From Actinokineospora baliensis (lineage in GTDB: Bacteria > Actinomycetota > Actinomycetes > Mycobacteriales > Pseudonocardiaceae), in assembly GCF_016907695.1 (NCBI RefSeq), contig NZ_JAFBCK010000001.1:7118001-7182000 (forward strand): a stretch of DNA of 64,000 nucleotides, read 5' to 3'. Below the pieces are notes generated by a model, which made no database searches, was not told the DNA's origin, and saw only the letters and a program-made list of their open reading frames with translations. Both the position numbers and the translations under genes were made by a program. The first letter of the stretch is position 1, and every line of letters begins with the position of its first letter. Positions 16,831 through 41,699 of the stretch are shown here, one piece after another.

Positions 16831-16976
16831 TGCTCGATGGGGCGAACTTGGTTTGCGCGGGGCCCCTGCGCTACCCGTGGCAGGACCGCAAAGCTGGGGC
16901 CGAAAAGCATGGCCCTGCAGCGCACAACGCTACGGGCACCGCCACCCCACACAAACCAAGTCCGCCCCATCGAGCA
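16831..16976. repeat. Structured dispersed repeat, copy A
   Basis: About 146 bp, bounded by TGCTCGATGGGGCG and its inverted counterpart ending CGCCCCATCGAGCA. The arms extend inward about 27 bases with one constant mismatch; in this copy both arms carry GG (ACTTGGTTTG on the left, CAAACCAAGT on the right). Inner hairpins are possible at CCTGC...GCAGG and GGGCC...GGCCC. The left flank (GGCTCGCCTTCGGCATTGCG) and right flank (CTTCCGAGTGTCCAGTGGTC, 16991) are shared with copy B. It fills most of the gap between the DUF1906 operon and the dehydrogenase. Confidence 0.85.
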
Positions 16977-17109
16977 TTTCGGGTGGGCAGCTTCCGAGTG
17001 TCCAGTGGTCGGCAATGCTGTCGGAGTCGGGTGGTCGGGCTGGCGGGGTCGGCCCCAGCTCAAGAGCGAACAGGCCCTGGGTCAGGGGGGCCGTGCGATT
17101 CCTCGGGGA

Positions 17110-17145
17110 CCGGGTGGGTGCCGAGCGGCTTCGGCACCCACCCGG
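17110..17145 (-). terminator. Strong hairpin after the aldehyde dehydrogenase gene
   Basis: A perfect 15 bp stem (CCGGGTGGGTGCCGA pairing with TCGGCACCCACCCGG) around a 6-base loop lies 3 bases beyond the stop of the dehydrogenase gene. There is no U-run, as usual for actinomycete terminators. Confidence 0.75.
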
Positions 17146-17148
17146 AGG

Positions 17149-18609
17149 TCAGAAGGGGTATCGGGGGAGGTCCCCGCGGAGGGTCACCCACTGGGTTTCG
17201 GTGAAGGCCTCGATGTTGGCCGCGGCGCCGCCGTGGCGGGAGCCGGTGCCGGAGGAGCCGACGCCGCCGAAGGGGGCGGGGGCTTCGTCGTTGACGGTTT
17301 GGTCGTTGATGTGGACCAGGCCGGAGGGCACTCGGTCGGCGAGGTCGAGGCCTGCCTGCAGGTCTCGGGTGAGGATGCCCAGCGAGAGGCCGTAGTCCGA
17401 ACCGGCGGCGAGGGCGGCGACCTCGTCGATCGAGGAGAACGGCGTCACCGGGGCGACCGGGCCGAAGATCTCCTCCTGGTAGGCGGGCACGTCGACCGGC
17501 ACGTCGCCGAGCACGGTTGGGCGGTAGAACAGGCCGTCGAAGGTGCCGCCGGTGCGCACCGTCGCGCCGCCCTCGGCGCTGGCGGTGACCAGGCCGTGCA
17601 CCCGGTCGCGCTGGCCCTGGTCGATCAGCGGACCCAGGGCCACCTGCTCGCGGTACGGGTCGCCGACCGGCAGCCCGGACACCTTCTCGGCCAGCACCGC
17701 CGTGTACTCCTCGGCGATCGACTCGTGCACCAGGTGCCTGCTGGTGGCCATGCAGATCTGACCGGAGTGGGTGAACGTGCCCCACGCGCCGACCGAGGCC
17801 GCCGCGGTGACGTCCACGTCGGGCAGGACGATCAGCGCCGAGTTGCCGCCCAGCTCCAGGTGCGCCCGCTTGAGGTGCTGGCCCGCCAGCGCCCCCACCG
17901 CGCGCCCGGCCCTGGTCGACCCGGTGAACGCGATGACCCGCACCGCGGGCTCGGTGACCAGGGCCTCGCCGACGTCGGCGCCGCCGGGTAGCACCTGCAG
18001 CAGGCCCTCGGGCAGCCCGGCCTCGGCGAAGATCCGCGCGAACACGGCTCCGCCGGAGATCGCGGTGCGCGGGTCGGGCTTGAGGATGACCGCGTTGCCC
18101 AGGGCCAGCGCGGGGGCGACCGCGCGGATGGCCAGGATCGTGGGGACGTTGAACGGCGCGATCACGCCGACCACGCCCACGGGCAGCCTGCGCGCGAACG
18201 ACAGCCGGGGCGCACCGGTGCGCAGCAGCTCGCCGTACGGGTGCGAGGGCAGCGCGGCGGCCTCGTAGCACTCCTGGGCGCTGGTGTGGACCTGGAACTC
18301 GCCGAACGGCCGGATCGCGCCGGACTCCCGGGAGAGCCAGTCCTTGATCTCCTCGGCGTGCAGGGTCAGCAGGTCACCGGCACCGCGCAGCACCGCGGCC
18401 CGCAGCTCGTGGGGTGCCGCAGCCCAGGCCCGCTGCGCGGTGACCGCCCGCTCGGCCGCCGCGTGCACGTCGGCCGGGGTGGCCTTGCCGACCACCCCGA
18501 GCGGCTCCCCGGTGGCGGGCTCCACGGCGGTGTAGGTCCCGCCACCGCCCTCGGTCCAGGTCCCGGTCCAGACCTTTCCCTGCCACGCGCCGTCCTCGAG
18601 CAGTGCCAT
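17149..18609 (-). CDS. Aldehyde dehydrogenase, benzaldehyde dehydrogenase-like
   Basis: 486 residues of the NAD(P)-dependent aldehyde dehydrogenase superfamily. Catalytic residues are all present: Lys177 (VILKPDP), Glu252 (LELGGNSALI) and nucleophile Cys286 (SGQICMATS); GSTRAG at 230-235 is the cofactor-binding turn. The start region (MALLEDGAWQGKVWTGTW) and overall pattern resemble actinobacterial benzaldehyde dehydrogenases that oxidise aromatic aldehydes to acids. I chose ATG 18609 because GGAGG lies 8-12 bases before it. It is divergent from the hydrolase gene; an AGTTGT/ACAACT palindrome at 18670 in its promoter region may be its operator. A perfect hairpin follows its stop. Confidence 0.85.
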   Translation of the reverse strand: MALLEDGAWQGKVWTGTWTEGGGGTYTAVEPATGEPLGVVGKATPADVHAAAERAVTAQRAWAAAPHELRAAVLRGAGDLLTLHAEEIKDWLSRESGAIRPFGEFQVHTSAQECYEAAALPSHPYGELLRTGAPRLSFARRLPVGVVGVIAPFNVPTILAIRAVAPALALGNAVILKPDPRTAISGGAVFARIFAEAGLPEGLLQVLPGGADVGEALVTEPAVRVIAFTGSTRAGRAVGALAGQHLKRAHLELGGNSALIVLPDVDVTAAASVGAWGTFTHSGQICMATSRHLVHESIAEEYTAVLAEKVSGLPVGDPYREQVALGPLIDQGQRDRVHGLVTASAEGGATVRTGGTFDGLFYRPTVLGDVPVDVPAYQEEIFGPVAPVTPFSSIDEVAALAAGSDYGLSLGILTRDLQAGLDLADRVPSGLVHINDQTVNDEAPAPFGGVGSSGTGSRHGGAAANIEAFTETQWVTLRGDLPRYPF

Positions 18610-18669
18610 CGCGTCGTCCTCCGTCTGCGGCGAGCACACCGGTCAGGGGTGAGCCTGCTGCATTGTTGA

Positions 18670-18682
18670 AGTTGTGACAACT
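18670..18682. promoter_or_regulatory. Candidate operator upstream of the aldehyde dehydrogenase gene
   Basis: AGTTGTGACAACT is a perfect 6 bp inverted repeat around one base, 61 bases before the dehydrogenase start in the divergent region. The GTTGT/ACAAC pattern resembles GntR- or MarR-type sites. No regulator gene is adjacent. Confidence 0.4.
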
Positions 18683-18803
18683 CGATCCTGGTGACCGGCC
18701 CTCCCCCGGACGGAGGACGCCGCGGTCAGACATCGGGGGGACGCCGGTGCCGGTCGCCCGCCGAGACGATGGCGAGGTCCACAGACGAGGGGAGTTCGTC
18801 CAC

Positions 18804-19991
18804 ATGAACCGGAGAACGTTCGGCGCGGTGCTCGCCACCGCGACGGCCGCGACAGTGCTCACGGCACTGCCCGCGGCGGCGGGTACTGGGGTGACCACGC
18901 CGGGGTTGAGCGGGCGGTACCCGGTGGGGACCAGGGAGGTGCACGTGGTCGACCAGGGCCGCGCCGACCCGTGGGTCCCCGACCGGCGCCGCGAGCTGAT
19001 GCTCACCGTGAGCTACCCGGCGGCCAGGGCGGGCGGCACCCGCGCCCGCTGGCTGTCGAGCGGGGTCGCGGCGGCGTTCACGCAACTGTTGGCGGACCCG
19101 AACTTCGTCGGCCTCCCACCGGGCACCGTCGACTGGACCGCGGTGCGCCGCCAAGCCGTGCTCGACGCGGCCCCGGCGCGCGGCAAGTGGCCGGTGGTGC
19201 TGTTCTCCCCGGGATTCGGCGGCCCCCGCGAGTTCTACACCGACAGGATCGACGACCTGGCCAGCCGCGGCTACGTCGTGGTGTCGATGTCGCACACCTT
19301 CGAGTCAGCGGTCGTCCAATTCCCGGACGGCCGGGTTGAGTACGGCCGCGCGAACGCAGGCAGCAGCGCGGACAAGAAGAAGGCCATCGACACCCGCGTC
19401 GCCGACACCCGCTTCGTCCTCGACCGGCTCGCTGACCTGCCCTTCGCCGACACAAGCCGGATCGGCATGGCGGGACACTCGTACGGCGGCTTCACCACGG
19501 GCGAGACGATGGTTGTTGATCGACGCATCAAGGCGGGGGTCAACATCGATGGTGCGCTCGGGTACGGGGCGGGGGTCTATCTGCCTGGTCGGGTGGTGGC
19601 GGAGGGGCTTGATCGGCCGTTCTTGCTGTTCGGCGGGGATGATGTGGATCCGGTGACGGGGCGGGAGTTGGAGCATTCGCACGTGGCGCGTGAACTGGAT
19701 CCGAGTTGGGCTGATTTCTGGGGGGTGCAGCGGGGGTGGAAGCGGGATCTGCACTTGGACTCCAGTACGCATTACTCGTTTACGGATCTGCAGTTTGTGG
19801 TGCCGCAGGCGCGGGGGTATTTGGGGGCTGGGGTTGTGGAGCGGGTGGTTGGGGGTGTGGATGCTCGGCGGTCGGTGGTGGTGCAGCGGGAGTATGTGGC
19901 AGGGTTCTTTGATCTGCATTTGCGGGGGCGGGATCGGGGGTTGTTCTCTGGGGGGTCGTGGTGTTATCCGGAGGTGCGGTTGATTCCGTAG
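18804..19991 (+). CDS. Secreted alpha/beta hydrolase, PAF-acetylhydrolase/lipase-like
   Basis: 395 residues from ATG 18804. The N-terminus (MNRRTFGAVLATATAATVLT...AAAG) is a signal peptide, possibly Tat-type because of the RR pair. The serine-hydrolase elbow GHSYGG places the nucleophile at Ser226; GKWPVVLFSPGFGG at 128-140 forms the oxyanion region and LLFGGDDVDP near residue 275 may supply the acid. This order fits isoform II PAF-acetylhydrolase-like esterases. It is divergent from the dehydrogenase gene (194 bases). The last third of the gene has many T/G-rich codons compared with the first two thirds. Substrate unknown. Confidence 0.8.
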   Translation: MNRRTFGAVLATATAATVLTALPAAAGTGVTTPGLSGRYPVGTREVHVVDQGRADPWVPDRRRELMLTVSYPAARAGGTRARWLSSGVAAAFTQLLADPNFVGLPPGTVDWTAVRRQAVLDAAPARGKWPVVLFSPGFGGPREFYTDRIDDLASRGYVVVSMSHTFESAVVQFPDGRVEYGRANAGSSADKKKAIDTRVADTRFVLDRLADLPFADTSRIGMAGHSYGGFTTGETMVVDRRIKAGVNIDGALGYGAGVYLPGRVVAEGLDRPFLLFGGDDVDPVTGRELEHSHVARELDPSWADFWGVQRGWKRDLHLDSSTHYSFTDLQFVVPQARGYLGAGVVERVVGGVDARRSVVVQREYVAGFFDLHLRGRDRGLFSGGSWCYPEVRLIP

Positions 19992-20043
19992 GGTCCTGGT
20001 CGGCTCGCCTGCGGCATTGCGCTGGATCCGTGGGTGGTGCGGT

Positions 20044-20192
20044 GTGCTCGATGGGGCGAACTTGGTTTGCGCGGGGCCCCTGCGCCACCCGTGGCAGGAC
20101 CGCAAAAGCCGGGGCCGAAAAGCATGGCCCTGCAGCGAGGCAAGGCTACGGGCACCGCCACCCCACGCAAACCAAGTCCGCCCCATCGAGCA
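20044..20192. repeat. Structured dispersed repeat, copy B
   Basis: About 149 bp with the same terminal arms as copy A (TGCTCGATGGGGCG ... CGCCCCATCGAGCA) and again GG in both arms (CTTGGTTTGCG / CGCAAACCAAG). Left flank GGCTCGCCTGCGGCATTGCG and right flank (CTTCCGAGTGTCCAGTGGTC at 20268, with a shorter extra copy at 20208) match copy A, so the mobile or amplified unit is longer than the hairpin. The 19992-20329 gap holds little else. Confidence 0.85.
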
Positions 20193-20329
20193 TCTGGCAC
20201 CGGAGGGTCCGAGTGTCCAGTGGCCGGGTTGGGCGGGTCGACTCGGGGAGTGTTCTGGCACCAGCGGCTTCCGAGTGTCCAGTGGTCGGCAATGCTGTCG
20301 GGGTCGGGGGGTTATGTTGGCACGCCTGC

Positions 20330-21280
20330 TCAGGTGTCTCCGCTCAGCAGTAGGCGTATTCGGGCGGCTTCGACTTCGTCGACATCAATGGCTAGGGATA
20401 GGGCTCTGTGTAGGTGGTGGCGGGCGGCTGCTATTGCTCCGGATTTTTGGGCGGCGGTGGCTCGTTGGAGCAAGAGATCAAGCCGTGGGCCTAGTGCTCG
20501 TTCCGCTTGTTCCAGGTACATCGCAGCGGCGGTGGGGCGGTTGGCTTGGAGCATGAGGGTGCCGATGGTGTGGAGGGCGGGGCCTTCGGGGGTGTCCTGG
20601 CGGCGGTGTTCGACCAAGAGGGCGAAGGCGGCGTCAAGGGCTCGGTGCCATTGTCTGGTGTTGCGGAACAAATCAAGCAAGGACTCGAGGGTGCCGATAA
20701 GGCGAGGCTCGTCGGTGAGGTTGCGCCAGAGGGTTAGGGCTCGGACCAGTTGGGATTCCGCTATGAGCGGGTCGCCCGCTGCGGCTGCGGTGTGGCCGGA
20801 GTGGTCGTGGAGGGCGGCTAGGGCTGCGGGGTTTTTCCATTGGCGGGCAGCGGTTTCGCCCCAGGTGGTCAGGTCGGCGCGCCAGGTGCTGTCGTGCAGT
20901 AAGGGGGGTTCGGCGGTGAGGGGCCAGAGGGTTAGGGCGAGGGTGCATCGGGCTTGAGCGGCGCCTGCGGAGGCGAAGGCGGCGGCCAAGTGGGGGCGGT
21001 GGTCGGCGACCCAGGTGGGTGAGTGGGCGTGTGATGCCAAGGCCGTCACGAACTTTGTCGGCAGCACGGGGTCCGGGGCGGAGCGCAGGGGGGTGGGGGG
21101 CGCGAACCAGCCGGGGCGGGTGGGGGTCAGGGTGCCCGCGCGGGTCATCTCGGTGACGACGTGGTGGGTGGTGGGGTGGGGCCAGTCGAGGGTGGCGGAG
21201 AGGAGGGGGAGGGACAAATCGGGTACGGCGAGGGTGGCGAAGGTGGCTGCCACCCGTTCCGCGGCCTCGTCTCGCCCCAC
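20330..21280 (-). CDS. Winged-helix/TPR protein resembling the C-terminal half of a STAND regulator
   Basis: 316 residues beginning at GTG 21280. The first 60 residues (VPDLSLPLLSATLDWPHPTT, then VTEMTRAGTLT) look like the winged helix that follows an NB-ARC domain, and the rest is TPR-like helices (LESLLDLFRNTRQWHRALDA; GTLMLQANRPTAAAMYLEQA). No P-loop is present, and only 62 bases separate it from the GntR gene upstream. It may be a stand-alone adaptor or the remnant of a larger STAND protein whose ATPase part was lost. Function unknown. Confidence 0.65.
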   Translation of the reverse strand: MGRDEAAERVAATFATLAVPDLSLPLLSATLDWPHPTTHHVVTEMTRAGTLTPTRPGWFAPPTPLRSAPDPVLPTKFVTALASHAHSPTWVADHRPHLAAAFASAGAAQARCTLALTLWPLTAEPPLLHDSTWRADLTTWGETAARQWKNPAALAALHDHSGHTAAAAGDPLIAESQLVRALTLWRNLTDEPRLIGTLESLLDLFRNTRQWHRALDAAFALLVEHRRQDTPEGPALHTIGTLMLQANRPTAAAMYLEQAERALGPRLDLLLQRATAAQKSGAIAAARHHLHRALSLAIDVDEVEAARIRLLLSGDT

Positions 21281-21342
21281 CGCACCGGCTCCGTTCGGCT
21301 CGTGCGCTGATCACGGCCCGCGGTCCATGATGCGCGCGGGCG

Positions 21343-22035
21343 TCAGCCGCCGAAGGCGGCCGTCAGGGTGAACCGGTCGCCGCGGACCAGGGTGTGCCGC
21401 CATTCCATGGGCTGGCCCTGGGCCCGGCTGAGCCGGTGGATGGAGAGCCCGACGCCGCAGCCGAGGACGGAGCGCTCCACCGGCGAGAGGGCCACCGCGC
21501 GGATGTTCTCGCGGGCCCGGTCCAGGCGCAGGCCGGTGCGGGCGAGAACCGCGTAGACGCCGATGTCGGTGAGGTCGGCGGTCAGCAGGCACCGCCCGTG
21601 CTCGGCGGGTAACCACACGCGGTCGATGGCCAGCGGTTCGTCGCCCGCCAGGCGCAGCCGCTCCAGGTGCACCAGCGGGGCGGAGCCGTCGAGGCCGAGG
21701 TGGTCGGCGACGACGCCGTCGGCGTGCACCTCGAGCTTGCGCACGACGCTGCGCTGGGTGAGCCCGGCGGTGCGGACCGAGGCGTTGAGGCTGTAGAGGG
21801 TGCCCAGCGGCTGCTCGACGCCCTGTTCGGCGCGGACCCGGGGGCGTCGCCCGCGTTCGGCGGTGACCACGCCGTCGGTGCGCAGCTTGGCCAGCGCCCG
21901 CCGGACCGTGGTGCGGCTGACCCCGTACTGCGCGACCAGCTCCGCCTCGCTGGGGAAGAAGCCGTCGAACTCGCCCTCGCGGAGCCTGCGGACGAGGTCG
22001 TCCTGCACGCGCCGCCACCGGATCCCGTGGTCCAT
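21343..22035 (-). CDS. GntR-family (HutC/UTRA) transcriptional regulator of the sulfide genes
   Basis: 230 residues. An N-terminal winged helix (residues 1-65; FPSEAELVAQYGVSRTTVRR is the recognition region) is followed by a UTRA effector domain (LGTLYSLNASVR to the end). It is divergent from the sulfide:quinone reductase gene with about 80 bases between, so it most likely controls that operon and itself; an AATGT/ACATT palindrome and a repeated TAAATGT lie in the gap. Most known sulfide operons of this gene content use CsoR- or ArsR-type persulfide sensors; here two cysteines, Cys149 and Cys193 in the UTRA domain, are the only candidate sulfur-sensing residues. That role is inference. Confidence 0.85.
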   Translation of the reverse strand: MDHGIRWRRVQDDLVRRLREGEFDGFFPSEAELVAQYGVSRTTVRRALAKLRTDGVVTAERGRRPRVRAEQGVEQPLGTLYSLNASVRTAGLTQRSVVRKLEVHADGVVADHLGLDGSAPLVHLERLRLAGDEPLAIDRVWLPAEHGRCLLTADLTDIGVYAVLARTGLRLDRARENIRAVALSPVERSVLGCGVGLSIHRLSRAQGQPMEWRHTLVRGDRFTLTAAFGG

Positions 22036-22089
22036 CCGCTAAATGTACCTACCTTTGCGCCCCGGACAAGCCCGCCGAGTCGTACCTTA

Positions 22090-22103
22090 AATGTCCGAAC
22101 ATT
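22090..22103. promoter_or_regulatory. Candidate GntR operator in front of the sulfide operon
   Basis: AATGTCCGAACATT (5 bp arms, 4-base centre) overlaps the region just before GAGGAGG, the ribosome binding site of the reductase gene. A second TAAATGT at 22040 repeats the left half. Binding here would block both divergent promoters. Confidence 0.5.
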
Positions 22104-22114
22104 GAGGAGGCGTG

Positions 22115-23263
22115 ATGGTCGTGATCGTGGGTGGCGGCACAGCCGGTATCACCGTGGCCGCTCGGCTGCGGCGGGCCGGTCTGCAGGACATCACCCTGGT
22201 CGACCCGGCGCACACCCACCACTACCAGCCGCTGTGGACGCTGGTCGGCGGCGGCCGGGCGCCGTTGCGGGAGAGCGCCCGGCCGCAGGCGTCGGTGGTG
22301 CCCAAGGGCGTCACCTGGGTGCGCCGCGCCGCCGTGGGGATCGACCCGGACGCCAAGCGGGTGCACCTGGACGACGGCACCGAGCTCGGCTACGACCAGC
22401 TCGTCGTGTGCCCCGGCATCCAGCTCAACTGGGGCGCGGTGCCCGGCATGACCGAGGCGCTACGCGCGAACGCGTCCAGCAACTACAGCGCCGACCTGGC
22501 GCCGCGCACGTGGGAGCTGATCAAGCGCACCCGGCGGGGCACCGCGGTGTTCGCGATGCCGTCGGGGCCGATCAAGTGCGCCGGGGCGCCGCAGAAGATC
22601 GCCTACCTGGCCGCCGACTACTGGCGCGAGCAGGGCGTGCTGCGCGACATCGACGTCCACCTGGTGCTGCCGACGCCCGCGCTGTTCGGCGTGCCGGAGT
22701 TCGCCGAGGTCCTGGCCGGGGTGGTGCGGCGGTACGGGATCACCACGCACCTGTCCAGCGAGGTGACCGAGGTCCGCGACGGGTCGGTGGTGATCAACGG
22801 CGAGACCGAGCTGCCGTACTCGATGGCGCACCTGGTGCCACCGCAGAGCGCGCCGGACTGGATCAAGGGCGGGCCGCTGGCCGGTGCGACCGGGTACGTC
22901 GAGGTGGACAAGCACACGCTGCGCCACGTCCGCCACCCCGAGGTGTTCGCGCTCGGCGACGCCGGGTCGACGCCGAACTCCAAGACCGGTGCGGCGATCC
23001 GCAAGCAGGCGCCGGTCGTGGTGGCCAACCTGCTCGCGGTCCGCCGGGGCCAGGAGCCGACCGCGCGCTACGACGGGTACGCGTCCTGCCCGCTGACGAC
23101 CGCGCGCAGGCGGATGCTGCTGGCCGAGTTCGACTACACGATGCGCCCCACGCCGTCGATCCCGGTGATCAACACGATCCGGGAGCGCACCGACATGTGG
23201 TACCTCAAGCGCTACGGGCTGCCGCTGATGTACTGGAACCTGATGCTGCGCGGGCGCGCGTGA
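22115..23263 (+). CDS. sqr: Sulfide:quinone oxidoreductase-like flavoprotein
   Basis: 382 residues. ATG 22115 has GAGGAGG five bases ahead; a GTG one codon earlier is too close to it. FAD-binding GGGTAG at residues 6-11 and the second FAD motif EVFALGDAGSTPNSKTGAAI near 276-295 are clear. Three cysteines at 99, 155 (IKCAGAP) and 325 (ASCPLTT) match the trio used by sulfide:quinone reductases to carry the growing sulfane chain. The reaction is sulfide oxidation with electron delivery to quinone, forming persulfide or polysulfide at the membrane; the amphipathic tail (DMWYLKRYGLPLMYW) could be the membrane anchor. First gene of the sulfide operon. Confidence 0.85.
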   Translation: MVVIVGGGTAGITVAARLRRAGLQDITLVDPAHTHHYQPLWTLVGGGRAPLRESARPQASVVPKGVTWVRRAAVGIDPDAKRVHLDDGTELGYDQLVVCPGIQLNWGAVPGMTEALRANASSNYSADLAPRTWELIKRTRRGTAVFAMPSGPIKCAGAPQKIAYLAADYWREQGVLRDIDVHLVLPTPALFGVPEFAEVLAGVVRRYGITTHLSSEVTEVRDGSVVINGETELPYSMAHLVPPQSAPDWIKGGPLAGATGYVEVDKHTLRHVRHPEVFALGDAGSTPNSKTGAAIRKQAPVVVANLLAVRRGQEPTARYDGYASCPLTTARRRMLLAEFDYTMRPTPSIPVINTIRERTDMWYLKRYGLPLMYWNLMLRGRA

Positions 23264-23277
23264 GACCTGGAGGAGCC

Positions 23278-25364: not shown

Positions 25365-25368
25365 GGGG

Positions 25369-25500: not shown

Positions 25501-25564
25501 GGCGAACTCCGGGGAGTTGGCGACAGGGGCGAGACATACACCACGTACCACCGGGAGCGGGGGT

Positions 25565-26707: not shown

Positions 26708-26742
26708 GGGCGTCTCCTTCGCCTACGGTTGGCGGTGTCCGA

Positions 26743-26765: not shown

Positions 26766-26780
26766 AGGGAAGTGAGCCGG

Positions 26781-27869: not shown

Positions 27870-27965
27870 ACCCCTCCGCTGCGATGTCCTGTTCGCCACG
27901 CACCGCTACCCGAGCTCGCGCCCACCGCGGCTCGACAACCGCATAAAGACACCCCGAGGGCAACC

Positions 27966-33944: not shown

Positions 33945-33963
33945 TCACCAGGCACCGCCAACC

Positions 33964-33995
33964 GGGCGGGCACCTCCGCACGGGGGTGCCCGCCC
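33964..33995. terminator. Bidirectional hairpin after the M4 protease gene
   Basis: GGGCGGGCACC pairs with GGTGCCCGCCC across a 10-base loop, 20 bases past the protease stop and 7 bases past the end of the convergent membrane gene. It can serve both directions. Confidence 0.75.
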
Positions 33996-34002
33996 TGCCG
34001 CG

Positions 34003-34296: not shown

Positions 34297-34298
34297 GC

Positions 34299-34622
34299 CT
34301 AGAACGCGATCTCCCGCCAGAGGTCCCACCACCCGACCGCGAACGCGCTCGGTACCAGGAACAGGACCAGCGCCGTCCGCCAATAGCCGCGGCCGCCGAT
34401 CTGCCCCACGGTCACGACCGCCCGGTTCACCCCGTAGAACACCCCGCCCACGACCGCCAGGGCGATGGCGACGAGCGGCAGGAACGCCAGCATCCCGCCC
34501 ATCTCCGCGGTCTCCCCCGGCGCCACCACGGCGACCGCCACCAGGGTCAGCGGGTACACCGCCAGGTACCCCACCCCCAGGTTGAGCAGCACCGCCGCGC
34601 CCCAAGCCCCCACTCGTCGCAT
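34299..34622 (-). CDS. Small membrane protein, paralogue 1
   Basis: 107 residues, ATG 34622. Hydrophobic segments near residues 7-30, 42-62 and 82-97. It shares its N-terminal pattern and GVGYLAV turn with the next gene, and the same loop N-R/V-G-V. Divergent from the MoaF-type gene by about 100 bases. Possibly a two-subunit small transporter or a membrane modulator; nothing identifies which. Confidence 0.7.
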   Translation of the reverse strand: MRRVGAWGAAVLLNLGVGYLAVYPLTLVAVAVVAPGETAEMGGMLAFLPLVAIALAVVGGVFYGVNRAVVTVGQIGGRGYWRTALVLFLVPSAFAVGWWDLWREIAF

Positions 34623-34724
34623 GCCGAAGAGTCTATTGACCAGGAGTGACCAGCTTTTGCCCGCCAGCGCTCGGCCGGGCCGCGCGCGCTGGCCGAGCGG
34701 GCGGTGGGCTCGCACGATGGGCCC

Positions 34725-35492
34725 ATGTCGACTCCTGCCGAGGACGAGTGGCGCACCTACGACGAGTTCGCCGACGGTATCGCCACCTACCGCCTGCCCA
34801 ACGCCGACCTGACCGGGCGCGAGATCGTCATCGCGCTCGAGGACGGCCCCGTGCTCGAGCTGCGGTTCGAGGACGCCACCCACGTGGTGTGCAACGGGGT
34901 GCGCGACCCCTACGACGCGGTGGCGGTGCGCGAGGACGTGTTCTTCGTGAACCTGCCGCTGACCAGTGTCGAGGGCGAGTCGCTGACCCTGGTCTTCTCG
35001 ACCACCACGCACCGCGCGCTCGGCGTGCTGTCGGTGATCGGCGCCGAGGACGTCGAGGGGCAGCCCAGGGTCCGGCAGTCGTTCTGGGCGGGGACCACCA
35101 ACGGCGGCGAGCCGACCGGTGAGGTGCCGGGGCCCTCGCGCGACCTGATCGGCAAGCGCAACCTCTACCGCTACAGCCCCAACCACCTCTACGAGCACGT
35201 GTACGTGTCCTCGCAGCGCTACACCTGGCAGTGCCTGGAGGGCATCCAGCGCGGGCACGGCGACACCGACCTGTCCACGGTCTGGAAGTTCGCCGACGGG
35301 CTGTACCTGTTCTGCTTCCGGGAGTTCCGCATCGCGGTGGCCAGCGTGTGGCTGCACGACCTGAGCATCGCGCTGCGCACCACCGGGGTGTTCCTCGGCC
35401 TCAACGGCGAGGGTGCCTCCGAGCACTCCACCGGCGGCGGCCACATCTACCCGCTCGGCGCGGTCGTCTACCCCGACGTCCAGCCGGTCTGA
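34725..35492 (+). CDS. MoaF-type protein 1
   Basis: 255 residues from ATG 34725. Two lipocalin-like halves typical of MoaF: an N-terminal half (RTYDEFADGIATYRLPN, LTGREIVIALEDG) and a C-terminal half carrying YEHVYVSSQRYTWQCLEG, the segment also present in the second MoaF-type protein at 42628. MoaF was first named in molybdenum-cofactor clusters, but these proteins frequently lie in aromatic-degradation loci, and here no Mo enzyme is present. It is followed after 25 bases by the SnoaL-like gene, and a very strong hairpin closes the pair. A role in binding a small aromatic or its lactone is inference. Confidence 0.8.
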   Translation: MSTPAEDEWRTYDEFADGIATYRLPNADLTGREIVIALEDGPVLELRFEDATHVVCNGVRDPYDAVAVREDVFFVNLPLTSVEGESLTLVFSTTTHRALGVLSVIGAEDVEGQPRVRQSFWAGTTNGGEPTGEVPGPSRDLIGKRNLYRYSPNHLYEHVYVSSQRYTWQCLEGIQRGHGDTDLSTVWKFADGLYLFCFREFRIAVASVWLHDLSIALRTTGVFLGLNGEGASEHSTGGGHIYPLGAVVYPDVQPV

Positions 35493-35517
35493 CCAGCACA
35501 ACGCAGAGGAGAACCCA

Positions 35518-35904
35518 TTGTCTACTGTGGACGTCGTCGCCGCACACTACGCGGCGAGCGACCGCGGTGACCTCGACGGCATGCTCGCCCCGATCACCGC
35601 GACGACCACCTGGACCGAGGCGGCCGGGTTCCCCTACGCGGGCACCTACACCGGGCCGGACGAGGTGCGCGAGAAGGTGTTCATCGCCATCGGGCAGGAC
35701 TGGGACGGCTACACCTTCACCCTGGCCGAGCTGGTCGACGGCGGTCAGACCGTGATCGGCCTGGGCCACTACCACGCCACGAACCGCCGGTCGGGCCGCG
35801 AGTTCACCGCCCGCGTGGCGCACGTGTGGAAGTTCGACGGCGACACCGTCGCCAGCTTCGAGCAGATCGTCGACTCCGTGCCGGTGGCCGCCGCCATCGA
35901 CTAG
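35518..35904 (+). CDS. SnoaL/NTF2-like protein
   Basis: 128 residues from TTG 35518; AGAGGAGAA six bases before it decides the unusual start. The fold pattern is that of SnoaL-like polyketide cyclase/NTF2 proteins: AAHYAASDRGDLDGMLAPIT, then TYTGPDEVREKVF and the paired strands VIGLGHYHATNRRSGREF and ARVAHVWKFDGDTVASFEQI. Members are small isomerases, dehydratases or binding proteins. It shares an operon with the MoaF-type gene, so a supporting step in the aromatic pathway is likely, but the reaction cannot be stated. Confidence 0.75.
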   Translation: MSTVDVVAAHYAASDRGDLDGMLAPITATTTWTEAAGFPYAGTYTGPDEVREKVFIAIGQDWDGYTFTLAELVDGGQTVIGLGHYHATNRRSGREFTARVAHVWKFDGDTVASFEQIVDSVPVAAAID

Positions 35905-35956
35905 CGGATCGAGCCACTGGGGCTCACCCGATGAGGTGAGGCGCCGTGCAGTTCCA

Positions 35957-36009
35957 CCCCCTGGCCGCCTCCTGGAGCGCTTCCGCGCGCTCCGGGAGGC
36001 GGCCAGGGG
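35957..36009 (+). terminator. Very strong hairpin closing the MoaF-SnoaL operon
   Basis: CCCCTGGCCGCCTCC and GGAGGCGGCCAGGGG pair around an inner GGAGCGC/GCGCTCC stem, about 22 bp in all with one internal mismatch and a 6-base loop. It separates this operon from the ABC importer. Confidence 0.8.
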
Positions 36010-36195
36010 CGTTTGCGGGCAAGGTCGGCGAGTGACCTGGATCGCACCCCGTGCTGCGCACGACAACACGCGTGCCCGCAAAGTCAAGGAGCGTGGGCCA
36101 GACCACTCATAGGGTCCGTTCCACCTTCGAAGAATTGAGTGAATCCCGTGCCCTGCGCGCGCAAGCGACCGCAGCCGAGAAAGACAGGGACCGCT

Positions 36196-37386
36196 ATGAG
36201 AAAGATCATGCGCAGCGTGGCGGTGGCCGCCGCGGTCACACTCGTCGCCGCCGGGTGTGCCGACGGTGGCAGCAGTGGCAGCGGCGGTGGCAGCGGGCCG
36301 ATCGTGGTCGGCTCGGTCAACGCGCTCAGCGGCGCGGCGACCTTCCCGGAGTCCTCCGCGGCCGCCAAGGCCGTCTTCGACGCCGCCAACGCCTCCGGCG
36401 GGGTCGGCGGTCGGCAGATCCAGTACAAGGCGCTCGACGACAAGGGCGACCCGGCCGCCGCCGCGGCCGCCGCGCGCGAGATCGTCGGTGCCGACGGCGC
36501 CGTCGCCCTGGTCGGCTCGTCGAGCCTGCTCGAGTGCGAGATCAACAACAAGTACTACGAGCAGCAGAAGATCCTGTCCATCTCCGGCATCGGCGTGGAC
36601 CCGGCCTGCTTCAACAGCCCCAACATCTCCCCGGCCAACGTCGGTCCCTACCACGACATGACGCTGACCCTGCTCTACGGCTCGGAGACGCTCAAGCTCG
36701 ACAACATCTGCGCGCTGCTGGAGATCGCGGGCAACACGCTGCCCTCCTACCAGGCCGCGATCGACGAGTGGACCAAGATCACCGGCAAGAAGCTGACGTA
36801 CATGGACGCCACCGTGCCCTACGGCGGCTCCGACTACACCAGCTACATCGTCAAGGCGCGCCAGGCGGGCTGCAAGGCGATCACCGTCAACCCGGTCGAG
36901 CCGGACTCCATCGGCCAGCTCAAGGCCGCCGCCGCGCAGGGCTGGAACGACGTCACCTGGCTGCTGCTCACCTCGGTGTACAGCGAGAACTACGCCAAGG
37001 CGGTCAGCAACGCCGGTGCGGGCATCTACGTCCCGGCCGAGTTCTACCCGTTCACCGACGCCGACGCCGCCCAGAACAAGGAGTGGCGCGAGCTGATGAC
37101 CAAGAACAACATCCCGCTGACCTCGTTCAGCCAGGGCGGTTACCTCGCGGCGAAGTACTTCCTGCAGGTGGTCAAGGGCATCTCCGGTGACATCAACCGC
37201 GAGTCGGTGACCAAGGCGCTGCAGGAGATGCAGCCCATCAGCGACCCGATGGTCGGAACCCCGTACGTGTTCGGCAAGGGCAAGACCCACCACGACAACA
37301 CCGCGGGCTGGCCGATCAAGCTCATGTCCGGCACCAACAAGTGGGAACTGGCCGAGCAGGACTGGCTGCGGATCCCGAAGAACTAG
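36196..37386 (+). CDS. Branched-chain-type ABC importer, substrate-binding lipoprotein
   Basis: 396 residues. The signal peptide ends in the lipobox LVAAGC, so the protein is lipid-anchored outside the membrane. The mature part (IVVGSVNALSGAATFPES, AAKAVFDAANASGGVGGR) is a type I periplasmic-binding fold of the LivK/aromatic-acid binding group. It begins the four-gene importer operon, 22 bases ahead of the permease. Proteins of this family in actinomycete catabolic loci bind aromatic acids or amides as often as amino acids; the surrounding resorcinol-type genes favour an aromatic ligand. Confidence 0.85.
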   Translation: MRKIMRSVAVAAAVTLVAAGCADGGSSGSGGGSGPIVVGSVNALSGAATFPESSAAAKAVFDAANASGGVGGRQIQYKALDDKGDPAAAAAAAREIVGADGAVALVGSSSLLECEINNKYYEQQKILSISGIGVDPACFNSPNISPANVGPYHDMTLTLLYGSETLKLDNICALLEIAGNTLPSYQAAIDEWTKITGKKLTYMDATVPYGGSDYTSYIVKARQAGCKAITVNPVEPDSIGQLKAAAAQGWNDVTWLLLTSVYSENYAKAVSNAGAGIYVPAEFYPFTDADAAQNKEWRELMTKNNIPLTSFSQGGYLAAKYFLQVVKGISGDINRESVTKALQEMQPISDPMVGTPYVFGKGKTHHDNTAGWPIKLMSGTNKWELAEQDWLRIPKN

Positions 37387-37407
37387 TACCGGTTAGGGAG
37401 TTCCTCG

Positions 37408-38268
37408 ATGCTGCAAGGAGCGCTGGCAGGTCTTGCCGCGGGCGGGCTGTACGCGGTGCTCGCCGTGTGCCTGACACTCATGTCGCGGCTGGTGCGGGTG
37501 GTCAACTTCGCCCAGTCGGCGACCGGGATGTTCGGCTGCTACGTCGCGGTCTGGCTCTCTGTCGACGTGGGACTCCCGACGTGGGCGGCGACGGTGGTGG
37601 GCATCGTGCTCGGCTGCGGGCTGAGCGCGCTGCTCGGGTGGATCATCTCCACCTGGCTGGCGGAGGCCGACATCGGCACCCGCTCCGCGGTCACCGTCGC
37701 CGTGCTCCTGCTGCTGATCTCGCTGTCGTTCATCCTGTTCGGCAACAAGCCGCAGCCCTTCCACCCGATCCTCGACGGCCCCGCGTTCGAGGTCAACGGC
37801 GTGGTGGTCAGCCAGGTCACGGTGGTCACCGTGGTGCTGTCGGTGGTGGTCGCGCTGGGCTGCCGGGCGCTGCTGAGCGGGACCTCGTTCGGCCTGCAGC
37901 TGCGGGCGCTGTCGGAGCGGCCGACGACCGCGGAGCTGATGGGCATCCCGGCCAAGCCGCTGGCGGTCGGGGTGTGGGCGGCGACCGGGTTGCTGAGCAC
38001 CCTGGTGATCTCGATCGTCGCCCCGTCGCAGTCCAACGACGCGACGTCGCTGTCGATGCTGGTGGTGCCCGCCGCGGCGGCCGCGCTGCTCGGCGGGTTC
38101 CGCAGGCTGGACCTGGCGGTGGTCGGCGGGCTGGTGCTCGGCATGGCCCAGGGCGCACTCGCCCAGGTCGACAGCCTCTCGGTGGTCCGCTACTTCCTGC
38201 CGTTCCTCGTCGTCGTCGGTCTGCTGCTGTGGTCGCAGCGCAAGGAGGTCTGGGATGTCGCGCGCTGA
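37408..38268 (+). CDS. Branched-chain-type ABC importer permease (LivH-like)
   Basis: 286 residues with about eight membrane helices. AGLAAGGLYAVLAVCLTLMS at the start and FGLQLRALSERPTTAELMGI, the EAA-like coupling loop, are typical of LivH. AGGGAG precedes ATG 37408. Its end overlaps the fused permease-ATPase gene by 14 bases. Imports the ligand of the upstream lipoprotein. Confidence 0.85.
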   Translation: MLQGALAGLAAGGLYAVLAVCLTLMSRLVRVVNFAQSATGMFGCYVAVWLSVDVGLPTWAATVVGIVLGCGLSALLGWIISTWLAEADIGTRSAVTVAVLLLLISLSFILFGNKPQPFHPILDGPAFEVNGVVVSQVTVVTVVLSVVVALGCRALLSGTSFGLQLRALSERPTTAELMGIPAKPLAVGVWAATGLLSTLVISIVAPSQSNDATSLSMLVVPAAAAALLGGFRRLDLAVVGGLVLGMAQGALAQVDSLSVVRYFLPFLVVVGLLLWSQRKEVWDVAR

Positions 38269-39976
38269 AACCGGCCCGCTGACCCGCTTCGGCGGCCCGC
38301 TGGTGGTGGCCGGTGCGGCCATCGTGGTGGGCTACCTGTTCAGCGTCGGGCTCGACGGGTACTTCGTGTACCTGGGGATGAGCGCGATCGTGGCCGGGAT
38401 CGCGCTGCTGGGCCTCGGTGTGGTGACCGGCAGCGCGGGCATGGTCTCGTTGTGCCAGTTGACCTTCGCCGCGGTCGGGGCGTGGGTGGTCTCCTACCTC
38501 AACCGCGCGGGCGCGCCGGGCGGGTTCCTGGTGTACCTGGTGTGCGGCGGTATCGCCGCCGGGCTGGTCGGCGTGCTGGTCGGCCTCCCGGCGCTGCGGC
38601 TGCGGGGGATCAACCTCGCCGTGGTGACCCTGGGGCTGGCCGCCGCGGCGGACCTGACGCTGGTGCAGATCCAGTTCCCCGGGACCGTCGACGGCGTGTC
38701 GGTGGAGCGCCCGGAGGCGTTCTCCGACGACCGCGGCTACTTCTGGCTGGGCACCATGGTGCTCACCGCGTGCTGCCTGCTCGTGCACTTCCTGCGCCGC
38801 ACCCGCTGGGGCAGCGGCTGGCAGGCGGTGGCCTTCTCCGAGCGCGGCACCGCGGCGGCGGGCGCGTCCGTGCGCACGTCCAAGCTGAGCGCGTTCGCGG
38901 TGAGCGCGGCGCTCGGCGGAGTCGCGGGCGGTCTGCTGACCGGCCAGGTCGGCCTGGCGTTCCCGGCCAGCTTCACCGCGATGCAGTCGCTGGCGCTCTA
39001 CGTGCTGGCCATCATGTCCGGCGCGCACCTGATCGACATGGCCGTCTTCGGCGCGGTGCTGTGGGTCGCGGTCCCCGAGCTGCTCAAGCGCTGGGGCATC
39101 CCGCAGGACTGGGGTTTCGTGGTCTTCGGCCTGCTCGGCACGCACGCCCTCACCACCGGCGGCAACCTGGGCACCGCGGTCCGCGAACTCTGGCGGCGGC
39201 GGTCCAAGGAGGCAGCGGGCATCAATCTGGGCGCACCACCGTCCGATGTGGAGATACCGGAACCCGGTGAACCCGTGCTCGTGGTCCGGGACTTGAGCGT
39301 GAGCTTCGGCGAAGTCAAAGCACTGTCGCACGTGGACATCACAGTGCCGTCCAACGGCGTGCTGGGCGTCATCGGACCCAACGGCGCCGGTAAGTCCACT
39401 TTGGTCGACATCCTCAGCGGCTTCCTCCCCCAGGCCACCGGGTCCGTCGAACTCGACGGCCTCGCGCTCAACGGGATGTCGCCCACCCGCCGGGCCCGCG
39501 CGGGCCTGCGTCGCACGTTCCAGCAGGACCGCGTCCCCGCAGGCCTCACCGTCGGCGCCTACGTCCGCTTCGTCGCCAGGCGCCGCCTGTCGACCGCCGA
39601 GATCGCCGACGCCCTGGAGTTCTTCGGCTGCCCCGCCCCCAAAACCCCACTACGCCGCGTCGACGTCGGCGCCCGCCGCCTGGTGGAGGTGGTCGGCCAC
39701 CTGCTGGCCAAGCCGAAGGTCCTGCTGCTCGACGAACCGGCCGCTGGCCTACCGCACGAGGAGCACGTCGCCCTCGGCCTGCGCCTGCGCCAGGTCCCCG
39801 CCCGCTTCGGCGTGTCGGTCCTGCTCATCGAACACGACCTCGACCTGGTCCGCTCGGTGTGCGACACGATCACCGTGCTCGACTTCGGGCAGGTGCTGGC
39901 CAGCGGACCCCAGGCCGAGGTACTCGCCAACCCGGAGGTCCTCAAGGCCTACATGGGTGAAACGGAGCTCCTGTGA
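38255..39976 (+). CDS. Fused LivM permease and LivG ATPase
   Basis: 573 residues. Residues 1-320 are a LivM-type permease (about nine helices; GLPALRLRGINLAVVTLGLA is the family signature). Residues about 340-573 are an ABC ATPase with Walker A GPNGAGKST near residue 374 and Walker B VLLLDEPAAGLPHEEH, with H-loop LIEHDLDLV. The usual signature LSYGQ is replaced by VDVGARRLVEVV, so this half may contribute a degenerate site, leaving the intact signature to LivF. Permease-ATPase fusions of this kind occur in some actinomycetes. The start overlaps the previous gene, and GTGA links it to the next. Confidence 0.85.
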   Translation: MSRAETGPLTRFGGPLVVAGAAIVVGYLFSVGLDGYFVYLGMSAIVAGIALLGLGVVTGSAGMVSLCQLTFAAVGAWVVSYLNRAGAPGGFLVYLVCGGIAAGLVGVLVGLPALRLRGINLAVVTLGLAAAADLTLVQIQFPGTVDGVSVERPEAFSDDRGYFWLGTMVLTACCLLVHFLRRTRWGSGWQAVAFSERGTAAAGASVRTSKLSAFAVSAALGGVAGGLLTGQVGLAFPASFTAMQSLALYVLAIMSGAHLIDMAVFGAVLWVAVPELLKRWGIPQDWGFVVFGLLGTHALTTGGNLGTAVRELWRRRSKEAAGINLGAPPSDVEIPEPGEPVLVVRDLSVSFGEVKALSHVDITVPSNGVLGVIGPNGAGKSTLVDILSGFLPQATGSVELDGLALNGMSPTRRARAGLRRTFQQDRVPAGLTVGAYVRFVARRRLSTAEIADALEFFGCPAPKTPLRRVDVGARRLVEVVGHLLAKPKVLLLDEPAAGLPHEEHVALGLRLRQVPARFGVSVLLIEHDLDLVRSVCDTITVLDFGQVLASGPQAEVLANPEVLKAYMGETELL

Positions 39977-40665
39977 ACGCGCTGCAGGTACAAGACATCA
40001 CCGTCACCCGAGGCGCAGGCCCGGTAATCCGCGACGTCGGCTTCACCCTGGAACCCGGCCGGATCACCGCACTGGTGGGCCCGAATGGGGCGGGCAAGAC
40101 CTCCCTGCTGGAGGCCATCTCCGGCGTGGTCCCGGCCGCCCGCGGGTCGGTGCGGATCGGGACCACGGAGATCACCAAGCACTCCAGGGTGGCCCGGGCG
40201 AAGCTCGGCCTGGCACACATCGAGCAGGGCCGAGCCGTGTTCCCCGGCCTGACCGTGCTGGAGAACCTCAAGCTCACCGCGCGCACGTGGCCCAGGGTGG
40301 AGGAGGTGCTCGCCCTGTTCCCCGAACTCGACAAGCGCCGAAACTCCCCCACAGCACTACTCAGCGGCGGCGAACAACAGATGGTCGTCCTAGCCCGAGC
40401 CTTCGCCGCCCGCCCCAAGTTCCTCCTCATAGACGAGATGTCCTTGGGCCTAGCCCCAGTCGTCTTCACCCGCCTGCTACCGATGGTCACCCGCTTCGCC
40501 TCAGAAGGCGCCGCAATCCTTCTGGTAGAACAATTCACCCACCTAGCCCTAGGCGTCTCCCAAGACGCCATTGTCGTCTCCTCGGGCCAGGTGACCTACC
40601 AGGGATCAGCCCAAGACCTCCTGAACTCCCCCGAAACCCTCCACTCCGCCTACCTAGGCGAATAA
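39973..40665 (+). CDS. Branched-chain-type ABC importer ATPase (LivF-like)
   Basis: 230 residues from GTG 39973, overlapping the preceding stop (GTGA). Walker A GPNGAGKT, an intact signature LLSGGEQQMVVLARAF, Walker B FLLIDEMSLGLAPVV and H-loop LLVEQFTHLAL mark it as LivF. It completes the importer. A 12 bp hairpin follows immediately. Confidence 0.88.
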   Translation: MNALQVQDITVTRGAGPVIRDVGFTLEPGRITALVGPNGAGKTSLLEAISGVVPAARGSVRIGTTEITKHSRVARAKLGLAHIEQGRAVFPGLTVLENLKLTARTWPRVEEVLALFPELDKRRNSPTALLSGGEQQMVVLARAFAARPKFLLIDEMSLGLAPVVFTRLLPMVTRFASEGAAILLVEQFTHLALGVSQDAIVVSSGQVTYQGSAQDLLNSPETLHSAYLGE

Positions 40666-40671
40666 GAGACC

Positions 40672-40704
40672 GGCTGGGTGACGTCCTGGGGGCGTCACCC
40701 AGCC
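40672..40704 (+). terminator. Hairpin after the ABC importer operon
   Basis: GGCTGGGTGACG pairs exactly with CGTCACCCAGCC over a 9-base loop, six bases beyond the LivF stop. Confidence 0.8.
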
Positions 40705-40773
40705 ACCCAAACCCTGGCACTGGCCCGGCCCCGTCAGCCTCGCCGCCGCTCTCGGAGGCCGCTGCCTCTCACT

Positions 40774-40918
40774 GCTCGATGGGGCGAACTTGTTTTGCGC
40801 GGGGCCCCTGCACCAGCCGTGGCAGGACCGCAAAGCTGGGGCCGAAGAGCGTGGCCCTGCAGCGAGGCAAGGCTACGACTGGCGCTCCCCCGCGCAAGAC
40901 AAGTCCGCCCCATCGAGC
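40774..40918. repeat. Structured dispersed repeat, copy C (first of a four-copy array)
   Basis: GCTCGATGGGGCG left arm and CGCCCCATCGAGC right arm, about 145 bp. Arms read ACTTGTTTTGCG on the left and CGCAAGACAAGT on the right, giving one extra mismatch. Left flank CTCTCGGAGGCCGCT is shared with copies D and E. The array from 40739 to 41699 has a period near 267 bases and contains no credible gene. Confidence 0.85.
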
Positions 40919-41040
40919 CGTCGCGCCCGGCCCCGAGTTGGCCCGCCCGACCCATCGCCCTGAGCTGGCCCGCTCAACCCAGCTGGCCGAGTCAGTCGCG
41001 TCAGCCTCGCCACTGCTCTCAGAGGCCGCTCGCTCTAACT

Positions 41041-41185
41041 GCTCGATGGGGCGAACTTGTTTTGCGCGGGGCCCCTGCACCAGCCGTGGCAGGACCGCAA
41101 AGCCGGGGCCGAAAAGCATGGCCCTGCAGCGAGGCAAGGCTACGACTGCCGCCACCCCACACAAAACAAGTCCGCCCCATCGAGC
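41041..41185. repeat. Structured dispersed repeat, copy D
   Basis: Same 145 bp unit, 267 bases after copy C. Arms ACTTGTTTTGCG and CACAAAACAAGT match; inner hairpins CCTGC/GCAGG and GGGCC/GGCCC intact. Flank CTCTCAGAGGCCGCTCGC. Confidence 0.85.
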
Positions 41186-41309
41186 CGCCGCGCCCAGCCC
41201 CTCGAGTTGGCCCGCCCAAACCAGCCCCCCGAGTTGGCCCGCCCAGCCCGGCCGTCCGGGCCGGGCCTGCCTGCCTCACTGCTGCTCTCGGAGGCCGCTC
41301 GCTCTAACT

Positions 41310-41456
41310 GCTCGATGGGGCGAACTTGTTTTGCGCGGGGCCCCTGCGCCAGCCGTGGCAGGACCGCAAAGCAGGGGCCGAAAAGCATGGCCCTGTCCGC
41401 GCAGCAACGCTACGACTGCCGCCACCCCCACGCAAAACAAGTCCGCCCCATCGAGC
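41310..41456. repeat. Structured dispersed repeat, copy E
   Basis: 147 bp, 269 bases after copy D, same arms with TTGT in the left and ACAA in the right. The inner segment after GGCCCTG differs (TCCGCGCAGCAACGC in place of CAGCGAGGCAAGGC), as in copy A. Confidence 0.85.
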
Positions 41457-41553
41457 CGCCGCACCCAGCCCCCCGAGCCAACCCACCCAACCCAGCCCCC
41501 CGAGCCAGCCCCGCCAACCCGGCCACCGCTCCCGGAAGTCGCTGGTGCCAACT

Positions 41554-41699
41554 GCTCGATGGGGTGGACCTGTTTTGTGTGGGGGGGACGTCAGCCGTAG
41601 CGTCGCCTCGCTGCAGGGCCATGCTTTTCGGCCCCTGCTTTGCGGTCCTGCCACGGCTGTCGTAGGGGCCCCACGCAAAACAGGTCCACCACATCGAGC
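41554..41699 (-). repeat. Structured dispersed repeat, copy F, inverted
   Basis: The arms are in the usual place but the core (CTGCAGGGCCATGCTTTTCG, GGTCCTGCCACGGCTG) is the reverse complement of the other copies, so the element is inverted. Both arms carry the same two changes relative to C-E: GGTGGACCTG on the left and CAGGTCCACC on the right. The right flank (ATGCCGCAGGCGAGCC, from 41729) is the inverted left flank of copies A and B. Confidence 0.85.

Follow-up and report, generated by a model that had tools for sequence, protein, structure and literature searches.

The window (the whole stretch of 64,000 nucleotides of Actinokineospora baliensis DNA analysed here) carries six copies of a palindromic element of 144–147 bp with a terminal stem of 31 bp, all of them present where an earlier note had placed them with matched changes in the two arms (the note gave the stem as 27 bp). 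Five are CTTG-type palindromes on the minus strand, copies A (16832–16975; 154.9 bits on this strand versus 63.8 on the plus), B (20046–20191; 149.8 versus 62), C (40774–40918), D (41041–41185) and E (41310–41456), and the sixth, F (41554–41699, plus strand; 151.3 bits versus 76 on the minus), is a CCTG-type copy of the same element in the reversed orientation. It should be noted that the strand given in each case is what we call the f strand, on which the arm mismatches are G.U. The arms carry CTTGG/CCAAG in A and B, CTTGT/ACAAG in C–E, and GGTGGACCTG/CAGGTCCACC in F, with one additional arm mismatch in C. Copy C heads a direct tandem array (40730–41524) with a 267-bp period and 27-bp minisatellite spacers which carries C, D and E, and E is also the inverted partner of F, the two lying 97 bp apart (41310–41699) in the geometry of the gene-carrying units described below, without a gene. 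Copies C–E have a core that is flipped relative to the flanks.

A search of the window with the 13-base arm start, allowing up to two mismatches, gave 17 matches, which is little above chance (shuffles had a mean of 7.3 and a largest value of 17), and 11 of the 17 were the exact arm starts or ends of the six copies. The flanks of the element are themselves repeated and element-specific: in 1.084 Mb of element-rich sequence, the module on the outer side of A (16785–16831, GGCTCGCCTTCGGCATTGCG...) was found 64 times no more than 400 bp from an element and a single time away from one.

In the folded f strand a long stem, P1 (31 bp in A. baliensis), with a purine-rich bulge of about 5 nt on its 3' side (AGGGG or AGAGG in most), is combined with a further stem, P2, a UAAGCU-like stretch, a hairpin inside and, often, a stretch of CUUUU. 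Within the genus, an alignment of 50 of 140 distinct copies (A2, six species; picked for diversity and reduced from 58 to 52 to 50, with one truncated and one further copy taken out) was 97.8% paired, with double-sided changes at 21 of 42 pairs and 156 double-change cells versus 39.5 after shuffling and no more than 32 when slid. Across five genera, double changes were found at 20 of 24 pairs with a score of 0.702 versus 0.217 for shuffled sequences (A5, 18 of 38 core sequences, leaving out those of genomes G001, G002, G004, G007, G010, G013 and G014, five aligner-shifted). With covariation so far above the shuffled and slid controls, the suggestion that the paired form is under selection was borne out. 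Rfam families, HEARO included, were rejected as an identity for the element: no family passed its gathering score in scans of the whole window, of 401 bases centred on the copy A region and of 13 loci elsewhere, and the six microRNA and two YrlA matches obtained in the scans fell short of cut-off.

On the f strand almost every arm mismatch is a G.U pair, with 307 wobbles in P1 on f versus 9 on the other strand among the 140 distinct copies from nine species, and in A2 the numbers were 115 versus 2 for P1 and 82 versus 2 for P2. The f strand also gives the more stable fold in 137 of the 140 copies, and the G.U excess was absent in G014 (1 versus 3). Paired changes keep the fold intact, as do G.U wobbles on one strand in most species. 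This bias bears on the idea that the palindrome acts as DNA, either as a cruciform or as a nucleoid-protein binding site with arms homogenised by copying from one to the other, which the long near-perfect palindromes and the flipped core of C–E would suit. A DNA-level site predicts no strand bias in G.U, and P2 and the unpaired stretches are conserved as well. Wobbles so biased to one strand argue against cruciform copying, as the earlier note had considered, and against a protein site on both strands, and they favour a single strand, RNA or ssDNA, in folded form; we have set the cruciform or double-stranded site aside on these grounds as very improbable indeed. The same look at G.U by strand offers an easy means of telling, for other families of repeats, whether palindromes are folded single strands or double-stranded.

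The A. baliensis genome contains about 213 copies, based on a 24-base arm pattern which, with up to three mismatches, matched 212 forward and 214 reverse sites in 7.68 Mb (the reversed control gave 0 and 1). Gene context was determined for 102 elements (two pairings of more than 160 bp that overlapped another were dropped to reduce 114 to 112, and ten more at region edges were then removed). The copies are intergenic, with none of the 102 inside genes called by our own script, and the concern that they might be misannotated as proteins found no instance here. Of the 102 elements, 60 lie between convergent genes and 7 between divergent ones, whereas the 678 pairs of adjacent genes in these stretches include 135 convergent and 148 divergent; the convergent placement recurs in G006 (11/19) and G014 (15/20). 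Together with the strong fold on one strand, this placement is what would be expected if the element were a terminator or a functional RNA acting at the 3' ends of genes (an mRNA stabiliser or RNase III site), spread by recombination and retained by selection. Against this, there is no orientation bias towards co-directional neighbouring genes in A. baliensis (f the same in 15 and opposite in 20), no T run was seen by eye after the stem, an orthologous site lacks the unit, and matches per congener range from 1 (G012) to at least 150, and we consider a role of this kind quite improbable. No promoter-like stretch was noticed by eye on the f side, which, like the lack of orientation bias, counts against the mobile-element reading favoured below. 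The replichore strand bias was at most 49 versus 63 with any origin tried.

In the proposed search of relatives, a covariance model matched all 16 Actinokineospora genomes, one of them solely through a truncated hairpin, and family-wide it matched 18 of 150 genomes in 6 of 46 genera (Actinokineospora and five others), where the few candidates scored per genome (21 in the family search and 9 in the phylum search) make zeros weak. Copy number varies widely among congeners, from the single match in G012 and three in G010 (seven with R2) to at least 150. A palindrome can be matched on both strands, as seen in G085, so the true number of copies may be slightly lower than the number of matches. Species differ in whether one site of the window is filled or empty: the unit at site A is present in A. 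diospyrosa and absent in A. globicatena and A. terrae. The note had proposed a check for target-site duplications; none was seen by eye at elements, and the empty sites were not clean.

Inverted neighbours in A. baliensis face outward in 16 cases and inward in three, and 15 of the 16 outward pairs, including E and F, join a CTTG-type to a CCTG-type end (45% expected, P = 6e-5). The genome retains two arm types in an outward geometry, gene-less. Spacers were considered as possible autonomous copies and rejected, as the one at 3941089–3942586 holds an IS3-like insertion (by eye) and two of about 1.6 kb hold an IS4-family insertion (Pfam); the IS4-family copies lie inside two elements and have other ends.

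A gene does lie between such ends in sister genera. Among the matches listed for G137, G168 and G153 (one sister genus) there are at least 35 inverted pairs, all minus-then-plus, and all 22 pairs read enclose a DUF222 sequence, split over two frames in three. All four single elements read in these genomes adjoin a DUF222 gene, the one pair of G061 (another genus) encloses a DUF222-HNH gene, and DUF222 is adjacent to elements in 3/3 places read in G050 and 1/1 in G022. The gene's 5' and 3' ends differ in type in all 12 units compared from two of the three sister-genus genomes, and two end types were not seen in G168 (7/7 units with the same base sequence at both ends) or G061 (1/1). These genes are a candidate autonomous partner not visible from the window. 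Pfam identified DUF222 (PF02720) in seven proteins (E 7e-18 to 2e-36) and HNH above cut-off in three; for the G137, G168 and G153 proteins the HNH call is from invariant residues and a profile match to IscB HNH (best 1e-5), not Pfam HNH. NCBIfam had no name for either of two proteins tested, and a structure model was of low confidence (pLDDT 60) and too weak for a fold search. DUF222-HNH is a large, uncharacterised actinobacterial protein family which includes the REP13E12 / DUF222-HNH repeats of mycobacteria, repetitive in their genomes, for which we know of no description of folded inverted ends. IscB/HEARO (OMEGA) also has an HNH nuclease beside a structured nucleic acid; the DUF222-HNH protein is like IscB in its HNH part, and differs in that DUF222 stands where IscB has its RuvC parts.

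The part of the A. baliensis genome that was read, 1.48 Mb (19%), contains no DUF222 frame, and neither does other DNA read from Actinokineospora. The enzyme has therefore not been seen in the genus, and no Actinokineospora locus read has a gene flanked by two inverted palindromes. Nor was DUF222 found in the flanks of about 1.5 kb read around copies in G085, G136, G173, G122, G142, G058, G059 and G010, or in two single-element places of G061, and the three of seven plasmid DUF222-HNH matches read from other families were all without such palindromes. This lack of DUF222 in the places read in most palindrome-bearing genera would fit another enzyme, such as a DDE transposase, moving the palindromes, with the DUF222-HNH gene carried along as cargo or as a homing passenger that one lineage had captured between two ends, and terminal inverted repeats at high copy number suit a miniature inverted-repeat element (MITE). 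We think this unlikely given the 22 of 22 pairs in three genomes and the further cases in G061, G050 and G022, with no other gene family recurrent beside elements (1450 proteins from element loci), Y1 transposase missing in 14 of 16 genus genomes, and RVT_1 in 13 of 16, that of the window included. Reverse transcriptase was rejected as a candidate, RVT_1 being found in G003, G006 and G011 and absent in G000 and G015, both with at least 150 matches.

One close parallel is with REP/REPIN and RAYT, described in the sources cited as species-specific intergenic palindromes in hundreds, often at gene 3' ends, with a nuclease gene between two inverted palindromes (PMC2817692, PMC3733652). The element shares the hundreds of intergenic palindromes, the species specificity and the inverted-flanked nuclease gene (found in G137, G168, G153 and G061, as DUF222-HNH). 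It would work like REP–RAYT but is not a member: it is 146 bp long and has two stems and unpaired stretches that are conserved, in contrast with REPs of 20–40 bp tagged GTAG as these are described there, no GTAG-like head is present on the element (144–147 bp), and its gene is DUF222-HNH where RAYT is a Y1 tyrosine transposase. RAYT was itself rejected, as PF01797 occurs in two of the 16 genus genomes (G006 and G014), not in that of the window, and is missing from every one with more than 26 matches. The BOX repeats of Streptococcus pneumoniae, as far as described in PMC3049150, are also modular, intergenic, enriched between convergent genes and of uncertain mobiliser, with paired termini and ends that have been compared with an IS, and the element resembles them in each of the first five respects; unlike BOX in that account, it occurs in sister genera as a form that carries a gene and has the same folded ends, and its fold is kept across genera. 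MITEs, in the source cited, are short and non-autonomous with inverted termini and many copies (PMC10969869), and the gene-less, high-copy element with terminal inverted repeats is alike; it differs from that description in being GC-rich with a whole single-strand fold selected, no target duplication seen by eye and no DDE parent among the proteins neighbouring element loci. REP13E12 is mentioned in PMC10589994.

The inverted ends around a DUF222-HNH gene in sister genera suggest a hitherto undescribed kind of mobile element, the enzyme of which may be the DUF222-HNH nuclease. The three options of the earlier note, whose interpretation is partly supported overall, were a structured RNA, a non-autonomous mobile element and a protein binding unit; we rate the mobile element best, and a two-strand protein site is opposed by the G.U bias. 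We think it somewhat probable that each copy is a solitary or miniature, non-autonomous end of a palindrome–DUF222-HNH gene–palindrome element acting through a folded single strand, with movement and enzyme action deduced from the arrangement, and we infer that E and F are such a unit, internally deleted. More tentatively, and short of calling it probable, DUF222-HNH proteins may be the nucleases that mobilise a new class of transposable element, the two folded palindromic ends of which are recognised as one strand, perhaps RNA from the 3' region of the gene, and which leaves gene-less ends by the hundred in genomes of the family. Each end folds as one single strand (f), and would be recognised by the DUF222-HNH protein as RNA or ssDNA, where the RNA form could come from the f strand downstream of the DUF222-HNH gene itself. 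The HNH domain would do the cutting, new copies would arise at gene 3' ends, and gene-less copies would have been moved in trans.

If this is true, it would account for a very abundant repeat and provide a function for the DUF222-HNH proteins, to which the REP13E12 repeats belong. It would also add a class of mobile element that combines an HNH enzyme with a folded end, in parallel with REP–RAYT and IscB.

The earlier note described six window copies (A–F) of a folded palindrome, and these proved to be closely similar elements of 144–147 bp each. In the complete 7.68 Mb A. baliensis genome the arm pattern had 212 forward and 214 reverse matches, whereas its control had 0 and 1. The stretches we read from it were element-enriched and not a random sample, with 112 complete copies in a first 1.084 Mb picked for elements and 161 in an extended 1.484 Mb. 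None of the 102 copies with both neighbours lay inside a gene called by our own gene caller. By the same calls, 60 of the 102 were found between convergent genes and seven between divergent genes; among the 678 adjacent gene pairs of these stretches, 135 were convergent and 148 divergent.

The fold is shown by covariation of paired bases, which the note had described for the arms. An alignment of 50 sequences from six species (A2) had 97.8% of cells paired and double-sided changes in 21 of 42 pairs, with 156 double-change cells compared with 39.5 after shuffling, which ignores relatedness, and at most 32 in a slid control, which retains it. In a second alignment of 18 sequences from five genera (A5), double-sided changes were seen in 9/9 pairs of the second stem (P2) and 11/15 pairs of the long outer stem (P1). 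Three unpaired parts recur: the bulge (AGGGG or AGAGG), a UAAGCU or UAAACU stretch, and CUUUU, of which the second and third are variable.

The strand of the fold was visible in a tally of 140 distinct copies from nine species. Over the 31 outer pairs, the strand carrying GGGGCCCC close to the 5' end had 307 A.C and 9 G.T mismatches, a ratio which overstates independence because cells count sequences and not events; read on the strand we call f, the same 307 are G.U wobbles. P2, outside the arms, had the same bias (82 G.U vs 2 A.C in A2), and G006 was in agreement (19 to 0), while G014, with nearly perfect arms, was without bias (1 to 3). Distinct position-and-type combinations were less lopsided but ran in the same direction (A. 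baliensis, 14 to 6; A. sp. NBRC 105648, 7 to 1; G009, 6 to 0; A. globicatena, A. terrae and A. diospyrosa, 10 to 0; G002, 3 to 1; G013, 1 to 0; G008, 1 to 1). As the more stable fold was also on f in 137/140 copies, the sequences favour a folded single strand, and cannot choose between RNA and ssDNA.

We note that by eye the f-strand bulge and the P1 top mirror one another, GGGG occurring with AGGGG and GGAG with AGAGG (e.g. L168, L171 and L172), which is what a purine triple strand would need. In most G006 copies (L305–L324), also by eye, an additional outer stem, CCGCAC/GTGCGG, and its loop of ~15 nt on one side lengthen the element to ~185 nt. Two weak tandem matches to YrlA (Y RNA-like), under the cut-off, are found at L171 308–563.

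The spread of the family is uneven. A covariance model of Actinokineospora copies (R1) found matches in 16/16 genomes of the genus (1 in G012, then 3, 13, 15, 24, 26, 41, 97, 112, 116, 123, 136, 136 and at least 150 in three), of which 15 are firm, as the sole match in G012 was a hairpin of 69 nt that R2, a model built across genera, did not recover. BLAST picked up the family in nine of these genomes, A. baliensis included. Among 150 genomes of the bacterial family R1 had matches in 18, from 6/46 genera, and among 396 genomes of the phylum R2 found A. baliensis and one weak match only. R2 also matched 13 of 20 genomes we had selected, including an additional genus (G022); the match in G542, from another bacterial family, has the same layout but is single and weak. 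Individual sites also differ: site A is occupied in A. diospyrosa (arms CTTGT there, CTTGG in the window), with the whole unit absent from A. globicatena and A. terrae, and the C–F site has one element in A. terrae compared with four in the window. No such inverted repeat was seen in 60 kb from one region of the A. globicatena genome, and no clean target duplication was seen at the elements.

Linkage to DUF222-HNH genes was directly observed in sister genera. In three genomes of sister genus g36 the matches formed inverted pairs 1.4–3.0 kb apart, with at least 14 pairs and three singles in G137, 15 pairs and ten singles in G168, and at least six pairs and three singles in G153 (hand counts among the 31/34, 40/40 and 15/18 matches listed). 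All 35 pairs among these ran minus then plus on f, so both f strands read outward. DUF222 sequence lay between the ends in each of the 22 pairs read (nine, nine and four; in two the second end was just beyond the stretch), over two frames in three, and adjoined 4/4 singles read. The one inverted pair in G061, of another genus, enclosed a gene for a 447 aa protein (DUF222 2e-36, HNH 1e-5), with no DUF222 gene at two single-element places read there, and DUF222-HNH genes adjoined single elements in G050 (three places) and G022 (one). At its C-terminus the protein carries an HNH motif whose Cys and His are invariant, and in a profile comparison with solved structures the HNH domains of IscB came closest to this part. 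In 12/12 units compared from G137 and G153, whatever their orientation, the modelled stem base was GGAT at the gene's 5'-side end and CGAT at the 3' end, and judged from these bases such units have two defined ends; both ends were alike in 7/7 G168 units and the G061 unit. On balance, we think it slightly more likely than not that the palindromes are the ends of a DUF222-HNH mobile element. The main gap in this reading lies in Actinokineospora itself, where none of the DNA read, the 1.484 Mb of A. baliensis included, yielded a DUF222 frame.

If the CTTG-type (A–E in the window) and CCTG-type (F) copies of A. baliensis are two such ends, neighbours should face outward and mix types. Inverted neighbours less than 2.5 kb apart among the 161 copies were outward in 16 cases and inward in three (P 0.002), and 15/16 outward pairs had mixed types (45% expected, P 6e-5), though these P values assume independent pairs and are optimistic because arrays recur. 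Direct neighbours were of the same type in 32/44 cases, and E and F form an outward, mixed-type pair with a 97 bp gap. The C-D-E-F array at 40774–41699, three CTTG-type copies then an inverted CCTG-type copy, recurs at G000:C1 3102317, 3224957, 3393400 and 3898166; these are probably copies of one larger unit, suggesting that this itself multiplies. Compared with A and B, copies C, D and E (40774, 41041 and 41310) have the core flipped relative to the immediate flanks, which may reflect inversion of the core between the arms. A 27-bp minisatellite (ACCCAGCCCCCCGAGCC...) occupies spacers beside elements (window 41463–41524 and others).

Other repeats and insertions were also noticed. Another family of palindromes, whose arms read CAGCCCCCGAATCCAGTCTAC, occurs in arrays at 53742–57308 of the window and in A. 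diospyrosa (L116 261–4442); its five arm matches in the 1.084 Mb of A. baliensis were all within the window. An IS4-family insertion sequence (Pfam Nterm_IS4) at L071 9850–11300 and L073 near 16780–18240 occupies the identical position within two elements; a 10-bp duplication, TGTTTTGCGT, is apparent there, and the element may be the target of this insertion sequence. An IS3-like insertion (by eye) lies between two palindromes at L093 ~9270–10560 (G000:C1 ~3941270–3942560), and its end sequences also adjoin several other elements.

No Rfam family matched in the sequence scanned. The element shares traits with MITEs but has no known parent, and it resembles REP-RAYT systems in its way of working, from which it differs in two defining respects (size and tag; enzyme). 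We propose that the DUF222-HNH protein would recognise the palindromic ends and move them. With one end lying downstream of the gene on f, the fold could be part of the gene's own transcript, which would be comparable to the use of nearby RNA by TnpB and IscB. The literature searched held no described role for the DUF222-HNH family in moving such ends. Our confidence in the mobile-element reading, and in the wider one that follows, is slightly lowered because G168 and G061 are without two end types. It is a tentative possibility, a little short of an even chance, that DUF222-HNH proteins are the mobility nucleases of a new class of element with folded ends recognised as single strands.
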